From the NCBI RefSeq assembly GCF_040250305.1, contig NZ_CP158190.1, positions 103,501-167,500 of the forward strand: a stretch of DNA of 64,000 nt, given 5' to 3'. Of the stretch, positions 43,184 to 47,156 are shown in pieces. The notes under the pieces were generated by a model. That model was given only the letters and a program-made list of their open reading frames with translations. It had not been told where the DNA came from and did no database searches. Both the position numbers and the translations under genes were made by a program. Numbering within the stretch: position 1 is the stretch's first letter; each line of letters starts with the position of its first letter. Source of the DNA: Peribacillus frigoritolerans. Lineage in GTDB: Bacteria > Bacillota > Bacilli > Bacillales > DSM-1321.

Positions 43184-43849
<666 letters not shown>

Positions 43850-43896
43850 TCATTCGTATTGATTTATGAAATTCATACCATTTTTATAACTTACTA

Positions 43897-44391
43897 GTTA
43901 AACTTGGTGCATTCCTATATTACAAAGGGTATAATGGATTTCGCGAGAGCATTCGCACATTTATTAATCAGGTTCTTGTACTTGGTATTCCCTGAATTGG
44001 GCGATTACTTTTTAAGTGATCTTCATGGACATATCCGGTCGGCAAAATTGATGAAGAAATGCAGTGACTCTATTGGGATTCCTAAAGAGTCGTGATATAG
44101 AGGGTTGAAAGAAGCTATGTCAGGCGTGCGCCTTTCAAACATCTCCCATGCTATTCAAACCTATGTCGAGACTAATTGCTTCTCTATTTCGAGAGTATGT
44201 CGGTCACGGAATCGGTCAAGACTTACATGAGGGCCCATAAAATCCTCATTTCGGTCCAACTGATAAAGGTCCTCAGTTAAAGCCTGGTTCTACAAAATGG
44301 TGAATACTTGATGCAGAATTGTAAGACTTATGAGGATGATTGGACTGTAGTAATGTTGACGGAAAGATGTGTACCTTTAATAGGTTCACGC
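43897..44391 (+). pseudogene. map: Degenerate map gene (type I methionine aminopeptidase)
   Basis: No intact frame, but pieces of MetAP can be read in order across shifting frames: KGYNGFRESI and a segment ending LGIP then a stop (43924-43995), ESxYRGLKEA with TGA for Leu (about 44085-44118), RLSNISHAIQTYVET (about 44130-44174), REYVGHGIGQDLHE (about 44199-44240, containing a metal/active-site histidine), a GPTDKGPQLKPGS-like segment (about 44254-44292), and VDGKMCTF (about 44354-44377). The N-terminal 50 or so codons and the C-terminal tail are missing. In-frame stops, frameshifts and lost residues mean it cannot make enzyme. The gene lies exactly where map sits between adk and infA in Bacilli; the small ybzG gene is also missing. 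Another MetAP must exist elsewhere. Confidence 0.9.
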
Positions 44392-44414
44392 ATAGAGAAG
44401 GGAGAATCACTTTA

Positions 44415-44633
44415 ATGGCGAAAGATGATGTAATTGAAGTAGAAGGCACAGTACAAGAGACTTTGCCAAATGCAATGTTTAAGGTAGAATTAGAAAATGG
44501 TCATACTGTTTTAGCTCATGTATCCGGTAAAATTCGTATGCACTTTATTCGCATTTTGCCTGGAGATAAAGTTACGGTTGAGCTTTCCCCGTATGATCTA
44601 ACTCGCGGCAGAATCACATACCGGTTCAAATAA
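44415..44633 (+). CDS. infA: Translation initiation factor IF-1
   Basis: OB-fold protein that blocks the A site during initiation, 72 residues ([20 protein letters not shown]). The ATG at 44415 is used, with AAGGGAG upstream; an in-frame start at 44340 would read out of the map remnant and is rejected. Confidence 0.97.
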
Positions 44634-44667: not shown

Positions 44668-44787
<120 letters not shown>

Positions 44788-44809
44788 ATAGAAGGAGGTG
44801 CACTCAAGC

Positions 44810-45175
44810 ATGGCACGTATTGCTGGAGTAGATATTCCCCGTGACAAACGTATTGTTATCTCATTAACATATATATATGGTATTGGAAAACAAACAGCGA
44901 TCAAGATTCTTGCAGAAGCAGGCGTTTCTGAAGAAACTCGCGTTCGTGACTTAACGGAAGACGAATTGAACAAAATTCGTGATATCATTGACAAGCTTAA
45001 AGTAGAAGGCGACCTTCGTCGTGAAATCTCCCTAAACATCAAACGTTTAATGGAAATCGGTTCATACCGTGGTTTACGTCACCGTCGTGGTCTTCCTGTT
45101 CGCGGTCAAAATACAAAAAACAATGCTCGTACGCGTAAAGGACCTCGTCGTACTGTAGCTAACAAGAAAAAATAA
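44810..45175 (+). CDS. rpsM: 30S ribosomal protein S13
   Basis: Top-of-head protein contacting 50S and P-site tRNA. 121 residues from the ATG at 44810 ([18 protein letters not shown]), following AGGAGGTGCACTCAAGC. Helix-two-turn-helix and the C-terminal [19 protein letters not shown] are intact. Confidence 0.98.
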
Positions 45176-45182
45176 TTAGTAA

Positions 45183-45587
<405 letters not shown>

Positions 45588-45603
45588 TTTTTCTGTATAG
45601 ATT

Positions 45604-45632
45604 TTGTATTCCTGTCAATAATGGGATATAAT
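45604..45632 (+). promoter_or_regulatory. Internal promoter for rpoA-rplQ
   Basis: TTGTAT (45604-45609) and perfect TATAAT (45627-45632), spacer 17, in the spacer after rpsK. It could supply extra alpha subunit independent of the ribosomal array. Confidence 0.65.
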
Positions 45633-45765
45633 ACTGAGTTTGCGTTCTTACAGAGGATTAATTTTCAGTTGTTGCGCACAGCGGGAACGTATACATGGGG
45701 AATTTCGGTTTAAGTGAATTCGTTTTACTTGCCGGGGTTTTGACGTTTTGAAGGAGGGTTTATTG

Positions 45766-46710
45766 ATGATCGAAATAGAAAAACCAAAAATCGAAACGGT
45801 TGAAATCAACGACGATACCAAATACGGTAAATTCGTCGTAGAGCCACTAGAGCGTGGGTATGGTACTACATTGGGTAACTCCTTACGTCGTATCCTTTTA
45901 TCCTCACTCCCAGGTGCTGCTGTCACAGCTATACAAATTGATGGAGTGCTACATGAGTTCTCAACAATTGAAGGCGTCGTGGAAGATGTAACATCTATCA
46001 TTCTTAATGTGAAAAAACTAGCTCTTAAGATTTACTCTGATGAAGAGAAGACGCTGGAAATTGACGTTCAAGGTGACGGAGTCATCACGGCTGCTGATAT
46101 CACTCATGATAGTGATGTAGAAATTCTTAATCCGGATTTATATATTGCTACAATTGGTAAAAACGGTCATATGCGTATGCGTTTATCTGCACGTCGCGGC
46201 CGCGGCTACACTCCTGCTGTTCAAAACAAGAGAGAAGACCAGCCAATTGGTGTAATTCCAATCGATGCTCTTTACACTCCAGTTTCACGCGTATCTTTCC
46301 AAGTTGAAAATACACGTGTTGGACAGTTGTCTAACTTTGACAAGTTAACGTTCGATGTTTGGACTGATGGCAGTACTGGTCCGCAAGAAGCGGTAGCACT
46401 TGGAGCTAAGATTTTAACAGAGCATTTAAATATCTTTGTTGGTTTAACCGATGAAGCTCAAAATGCTGAAATCATGGTTGAAAAAGAAGAAGATCAAAAA
46501 GAAAAAGTTCTTGAGATGACGATCGAAGAATTAGACCTTTCTGTTCGTTCTTACAACTGCTTGAAACGTGCTGGAATCAATACCGTTCAAGAGCTAGCTC
46601 ATAAAACGGAAGAAGATATGATGAAAGTACGTAATCTAGGACGTAAATCACTTGAAGAAGTGAAAGCGAAACTAGAAGAATTAGGCTTAGGTCTTCGTAA
46701 AGACGACTGA
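45766..46710 (+). CDS. rpoA: DNA-directed RNA polymerase subunit alpha
   Basis: Alpha dimer nucleates RNA polymerase assembly. 314 residues from the ATG at 45766 ([19 protein letters not shown]), with GAAGGAGGG upstream. N-terminal assembly domain ([20 protein letters not shown]) is followed by an acidic linker and the C-terminal promoter-binding domain ([20 protein letters not shown], about residue 248). Confidence 0.98.
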
Positions 46711-46793
46711 TAACATGGCGGAATCAATCCATTATGTTGTGAGCCTTGTTATAGACACACAATATAGAACTTCAACAAAGGAGGGAATCTCTA

Positions 46794-47156
46794 ATGGGTT
46801 ACAGAAAGTTAGGACGCACTAGCGCACAACGTAAAGCATTACTTCGTGATTTAGCTACGGATCTTATTATCCATGAGCGCATTGAAACTACTGAAGCACG
46901 TGCAAAGGAATTACGTTCTGTAGTAGATAAAATGATCACTCTTGGTAAACGTGGTGACTTGCATGCACGCCGTCAAGCTGCATCTTTCATCCGTAACGAA
47001 ATCGCTGACGCTGAGAATGGCACAGATGCCCTTCAAAAACTATTCAGTGACGTGGCTCCACGTTATGAAGAACGTCAAGGTGGATACACTCGTATCATGA
47101 AAGTTGGTCCACGCCGCGGTGACGGTGCACCAGTCGTGGTTATTGAATTAGTTTAA
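46794..47156 (+). CDS. rplQ: 50S ribosomal protein L17
   Basis: Tunnel-exit protein, 120 residues ([20 protein letters not shown]), end of the S10-spc-alpha array. AAAGGAGGGAATCTCTA precedes the ATG, and a terminator follows the stop. Confidence 0.98.

Follow-up and report, generated by a model that had tools for sequence, protein, structure and literature searches.

A decayed map gene retained between adk and infA in Peribacillus may hold an RNA element that pairs with the infA translation start

Translational coupling by sequestration has classical cases in E. coli, and unitary pseudogenes whose role is covered by a redundant paralogue are a general notion. In such coupling (reviewed in PMC12548453), the mRNA of an upstream gene sequesters the ribosome-binding site of the next one: the upstream coding sequence is complementary to the Shine-Dalgarno sequence and start codon of that gene, within a cluster of translation genes. 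The r-leaders, of which PMC7247131 presents 20 candidates, are candidate structured RNAs located 5' of translation genes in Firmicutes; its main text contains neither infA nor IF1 as a term. FRESCo (PMC4376164) uses reduced synonymous change to mark elements embedded in the genes of viruses. The gene map, together with adk and infA, is ancestral in the operon cluster, according to PMC8046335.

The map locus described here shares features with each of these systems. Like the coupled genes of PMC12548453, it has an upstream coding sequence complementary to a downstream Shine-Dalgarno sequence and start codon in a translation-gene cluster; unlike them, the upstream gene is dead and the partner stretch persists. 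Like the r-leaders of PMC7247131, it would be a structured RNA in front of a translation gene, but it derives from protein-coding DNA and has no Rfam family match at the gathering score between 43000 and 45000. As in unitary pseudogenes, the ancestral locus was lost and paralogues exist elsewhere, but the map relic is under strong constraint and is not drifting. Reduced synonymous change marks it as it marks the viral elements treated in PMC4376164, with the differences that this case is bacterial and that it was also tested by gene death. Neither a map-infA contact nor this map relic was described in the literature searched, which takes in few subscription papers.

The window, a stretch of 64,000 nucleotides of Peribacillus frigoritolerans DNA, carries on its plus strand an intact adk (43196..43849), the map relic (43850..44414), infA encoding IF1 (44415..44633) and, in the same cluster, rpmJ, rpsM, rpsK, rpoA and rplQ (44674..47156). 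The first-pass annotation had proposed that the sequence between adk and infA is a decayed methionine aminopeptidase (MetAP) gene of the spc operon, with several stops, frameshifts, missing ends and too many lesions for one sequencing error. The five peptide pieces it named can all be read in order, and over the 565 bases of the interval pieces of MapA, a type I MetAP, follow one another in broken frames. In one alignment against the intact map of the relative G033, the relic differed by 11 indels, nine of them frame-breaking; the 11 include deletions of 92 nt close to the start, 47 nt around codon 85 and 81 nt where the gene ends. Since 347 relic bases (query 831-1177) match the G033 map at 82% and at the same operon position, chance similarity can be excluded. 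The adk-relic-infA DNA was found in one place only in its own genome, a single 5.6 Mb contig. A relic of 562-568 nt is common to 21 of the 36 genomes of the genus (own genome included), which makes a sequencing error most unlikely. With map similarity at the adk-infA position and a broken frame common to assemblies, the spc-operon map is a pseudogene shared among genomes.

The supposition that the cell has other MetAP genes also held. Three further type I MetAPs are encoded in the same genome at C1:2680262, 628819 and 882364 (L003, L004 and L005), with 50%, 48% and 38% identity to the G033 MapA. All three keep, at the places aligned with MapA, the six residues H-D-D-H-E-E, which we take to be the MetAP active site; the loss of map was thus affordable. 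In another relic-bearing genome (G008, 87% complete), a second MetAP copy that is 47% identical to MapA (C1:3553576-3554106) is apparently interrupted by TGA.

Besides the 21 genomes with the same relic, seven of the 36 have an intact 248-amino-acid map and eight have other relics (G012, G002, G003, G032, G005, G010, G011 and G023). Intact genes occur in named relatives, among them Peribacillus saganii, P. glennii, P. acanthi and Bacillus sp. OV322, and in 7/7 genomes from three further genera in the family. The loss in G005 was a separate one, because G005 is placed among genomes with intact map. The position of G033 differs between two trees, and whether the remaining relics reflect one loss or more depends on it. 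A search for horizontal copies, outside phages and E. coli, gave one plasmid record, which carries an annotated map gene. Among 397 genomes of the wider order, some matched MapA only distantly, with a best E of about 1e-76 to 1e-97.

The relic evolves about ten times slower than neighboring four-fold sites. Across 21 genomes, positions 43910-44414 have a mean pairwise divergence of 0.016, compared with 0.165 at the four-fold sites of secY, adk, ecfA1 and ecfT, and the relic has thus not evolved neutrally since map was lost. Relic distance was proportional to four-fold distance (r=0.84, slope 0.10, intercept near zero, Mantel 0/2000); since the two scale together, we read this as vertical descent at a lower rate and not as a recent sweep. 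The first 60 bases of the relic are looser (0.074). Farther along the chromosome, six spacers downstream of the ribosomal operon diverged by 0.073-0.198 (12-20 syntenic genomes; two of the 14 features in this comparison gave too few genomes), the rplQ-ecfA1 spacer by 0.050, and the four-fold sites of cwlD and mrp by 0.26-0.28.

When relics of several lineages were aligned, near-identical islands stood between stretches that can no longer be aligned. Four plus-strand stretches are followed here: block A (43906..43945; map codons about 52-64), which contains TATAAT at 43930-43935, a candidate -10 element of an internal promoter; block b (44126..44166; codons 142-152), with CGCC at 44129-44132 and TCTCCC at 44142-44147; block c (44191..44232; codons 163-176), reading GAGAGTATG...CACGGAATCGGTCAAGACTTACATGAGG; and a 3' stretch (44340..44372; GGACTG...GTTGACGGAAAGATGTG) that is kept in most aligned Peribacillus relics and lost in G005. 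We scored each 10-codon window of an intact relative for retention in 11 relics, four of them from two other families (f41 and f47). Mean retention was best at codons 55-67, 124-151 and 163-181, and windows 142-151 and 163-172 scored >=0.30 in 11/11 relics. Codons 106-118, 178-190 and 211-225 were likewise kept in several Peribacillus relics. Among windows with about the same conservation in intact genes, those in the blocks scored 0.24 (n=5) versus 0.15 (n=28) outside, 0.39 (n=8) versus 0.10 (n=20), and 0.60 (n=6) versus 0.21 (n=4), a comparison that is by itself partly circular because the block limits were drawn from the relics.

Candidate map-less genomes of other families (24) were picked by hand, partly for an existing DNA match; one had no infA match (G421) and one had a full-length map (G229), so that 22 were scored. 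Blocks b and c were kept in 4/22 (G082, G251 and G177 of f41, G376 of f47), block A alone in 3/22 (G055, G290 and G331), and a short b-like match alone in one (G101). The other 14 keep none of blocks A, b and c, and two of them (G213 and G182) have a different map-like piece (codons 211-241 and 208-229).

Much the same stretches that survive best in relics have low synonymous change in intact maps. We compared 13 diverged intact maps of the family with 138 overlapping sets of 13 near neighbors from other Bacillaceae (mean change 0.18-0.53; family 0.39). For codon limits that were chosen with some prior knowledge of the data, relative synonymous change was 0.66 at codons 121-152 and 0.10 at codons 169-176, with none of the 138 sets as low in either case, 0.29 at codons 57-64 (four sets as low) and 0.42 at codons 164-176 (nine sets as low). 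The same 13 maps had no suppression at codons 177-240 (117/138 sets as low) or 65-112 (138/138). Among 152 intact Bacillaceae maps, the top windows of synonymous constraint lay in codons 48-66 (0.221, permutation 95% limit 0.208); the adk control was also slightly above its own limit (0.183 vs 0.176). The description of the leftover DNA as a mere spacer with a weak infA promoter does not agree with these results: the relic is slow compared with four-fold sites, particular stretches were kept in separate losses, and synonymous change is suppressed in intact maps.

Block b is complementary to the translation start region of infA (44400..44420, plus strand), which has GGGAGA at 44400-44405, ATG at 44415-44417 and GGCG at 44417-44420. 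The GGGAGA of the ribosome-binding site has its complement in TCTCCC of block b, and the GGCG at the start codon has its complement in CGCC. The duplex energy is predicted at -16.7 kcal/mol for the 21 genomes with the same relic; 14 further genomes range from -14.0 to -18.9, and G005 has -10.8. When 16 genus sequences were folded at greater length, GGGAGA:TCTCCC came out above 0.75 in 10 (0.84 in the window), at 0.30-0.47 in G034, G002, G010 and G033, and at 0.00 in G023 and G005. Three of the four other-family relics are predicted to fold into the infA contact (G376, 0.00). In other Bacillaceae, UCGAAC:GUUCGA spanning the start codon can lengthen the match, with energies as low as -25.9 kcal/mol. 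More than three pairs were expected at 18/20 family loci versus 53/132 loci of other Bacillaceae (duplicates included), with 79/132 of the latter at three or fewer.

Block b also pairs better with the infA start of its own genome than with those of other genomes: matched duplexes averaged -13.43 and permuted ones -12.62 (z -5.2, n=111), and the signal was z -4.6 in 98 non-family sequences and z -3.5 after thinning to 68. The family alone gave no matched-versus-permuted signal (n=13, p 0.18). Of 81 map windows, codons 142-149 ranked first in both energy and matched signal (z -5.21). The permutation does not keep relatedness, and the value of -5.2 is to be read against the spread of the windows (mean -0.24, sd 1.52, block b window counted twice), among which a next best of -3.75 and a maximum of +4.06 show that relatedness alone can give large scores. 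An initial test whose infA region stopped two bases short of the start codon gave no significant result (z -1.28), and the region was lengthened after the duplexes had been seen. We thus regard the contact between block b and infA as a strong but post hoc hypothesis. For block c, a partner search gave as best windows those around map codons 179-191; none from infA outranked them. In intact Bacillaceae, map codons 49-56 (in block A) come second in the stability of pairing with the infA start (-12.6 kcal/mol), without a matched signal (z -1.2). The infA ribosome-binding site also contains GAGAAGGG (44395-44402), presumably the B. subtilis SpoIIIE recognition sequence, and this likeness is probably a coincidence.

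A local RNA fold is predicted as well. On the plus strand, hairpin P1 (44066..44091; GACTCT/AGAGTC) keeps its stem and has a variable loop, and hairpin P2 (44100..44145; TTGAAAG/CTTTCAA and flanks) includes some bases that the infA pairing would also use. The consensus fold of 14 relics over 44040-44389 had z -4.8 (0/100) under a dinucleotide null that keeps the conservation pattern, with -3.7 for 44050-44140, -3.6 for 44205-44365 and only -2.0 for 44120-44235; the upstream control, 43950-44050, had z +0.7. Column-shuffle z-scores break up conserved blocks, were judged inflated and were replaced by this null, and reversed alignments are no null because reversal keeps pairs. Two-sided covariation was nearly absent from the fold (1/29 pairs in A2, 0/29 in A3) because conservation is so high, and 10 single leader sequences, including two intact maps, had ordinary stability (z -1.90 to +0.95). 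Extending the whole relic fold to Bacillaceae was rejected: over 156 maps, most helices had no synonymous covariation (P1 z 2.95, P2b 3.32, P3a -2.68). A covariance model of the core (R1) matched the adk-infA site in 43/43 family genomes at 114-172 bits, and its matches elsewhere reached at most 43 bits, most of them at places of MetAP genes.

Together, the constraint, the stretch-specific retention in separate losses, the synonymous suppression in intact genes and the complementarity with its matched-change signal suggest an RNA element embedded in map that could act on infA by translational coupling or sequestration and was kept past the death of map. While map died as a protein gene, we put at about even the chance that its embedded non-coding elements were kept by selection, and that block b pairs with the infA start and controls infA translation. 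Block b (codons 142-149) would be read in the mRNA and would pair at long range with its presumed target, infA, at the ribosome-binding site and start codon, so that infA translation would depend on the fate of this stretch. We infer both that the pairing forms and that it represses infA. Translational coupling is the simplest account: where map is intact, ribosomes translating it would open the contact and infA would be coupled to map; in map-less Peribacillus, P2, with its overlapping bases, could be a competing state that opens the contact, giving a two-state leader. More tentatively, map in Bacillaceae could be two things in one, an enzyme and a long-range RNA latch on the infA start. In Peribacillus the latch would then be a stand-alone switch, with P2 set against the infA contact and block c perhaps binding a ligand, and would have outlasted the gene; at least two further families would have kept the same latch bases after their own map losses.

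Gene death acts as a natural knockout of coding constraint, and what survives reveals the bases that had a further function; in this case they point to a candidate control of IF1 synthesis within the core ribosomal cluster. The approach offers a general route to regulatory elements hidden in bacterial coding sequences, and a warning that a pseudogene annotated in an operon may be a functional leader.

The constraint could instead act on DNA, through one or more internal promoters and protein sites within map that serve the infA-rplQ operon without any RNA pairing. The first-pass annotation had pointed to a weak infA promoter, and its hexamers are present (TTGACG 44356-44361, TAATAG 44378-44383, 16-nt spacer); we rejected it because deeper relics do not retain the second hexamer, and the site is absent from our promoter scan. 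The perfect TATAAT of block A is better conserved, lies inside the strongest synonymous-constraint window of the 152 intact Bacillaceae maps, and is kept in the main clade and in G012, G002, G003 and G032; judged by its letters, it may start a transcript. However, it is missing in G010, G011, G023 and G005, has no clear -35 element by eye and is not listed by the promoter scan, which placed no promoter within the kept blocks; moreover, about 500 slow bases are more than a promoter. We consider an explanation at the DNA level unlikely. The scan also gave a single terminator-like site (43943-43956), which lies 5' of blocks b and c, and such sites occur in the region at chance frequency.

A small or antisense RNA on the minus strand, running across blocks c, b, P2 and P1, would make the complementarity to infA incidental. 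The core (44060-44236) indeed folds as well or better on that strand (minus versus plus, z -5.7 vs -4.2 in relics, -2.8 vs -1.6 in intact maps and -3.4 vs -3.1 in all 23), and a minus-strand TTGACC/TACTCT pair with 16-nt spacing can be read by eye in block c. The promoter scan did not report this pair, however, no conserved terminator-like tract was seen by eye beyond P1 in the alignment, and the larger domain 44205-44365 favors the plus strand (plus -52.6, minus -43.2). Nor would such an RNA lead one to expect the matched signal at the infA start, and we think this reading distinctly unlikely.

Ordinary decay, in which recent losses or homogenizing recombination make the relic look conserved, would draw on the slowness of the ribosomal operon as a whole. 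Spacers inside the operon diverge by 0.000-0.024 (rpsK-rpoA, 0.013), ribosomal genes are low at four-fold sites (rplQ 0.015, infA 0.003), and infA third positions hardly vary (0.004). These values make the contrast less sharp, while the comparison with secY, adk, ecfA1 and ecfT stands. Motifs conserved in the protein would also stay recognizable longest, in line with a correlation of 0.52 between relic and intact window scores, and many map-less genomes have no block at all. On the other hand, the proportionality of relic and four-fold distances is unlike a sweep, windows outside the blocks survive less although they are about equally conserved in intact genes, and the synonymous suppression seen in intact genes owes nothing to decay. 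These points leave ordinary decay a slim chance.

That the relic codes for short peptides is hardly credible and was set aside: a 63-amino-acid frame (43904-44095) forms all or part of the longest open stretch in 18/21 genomes, but G030 has a 2-nt deletion inside it and indels make the frames differ between relic lineages.

Some minor features of the region were seen along the way. Of the 22 aligned genus sequences, only G015 and G025 apparently have a second small gene between map and infA in complete form (L048, L049), which presumably encodes a KOW-domain RNA-binding protein. What is left of it in the window is apparently just its ends (44390-44414), the former 3' end seeming to form the infA ribosome-binding site. 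Farther downstream, the rpmJ-rpsM junction has a weak Alpha_RBS match (44736-44842; 19.3 bits, E 0.12, gathering score 38), and the 178-base rpsK-rpoA spacer (45588-45765), whose divergence was taken over 21 genomes, could be an unrecognized leader.
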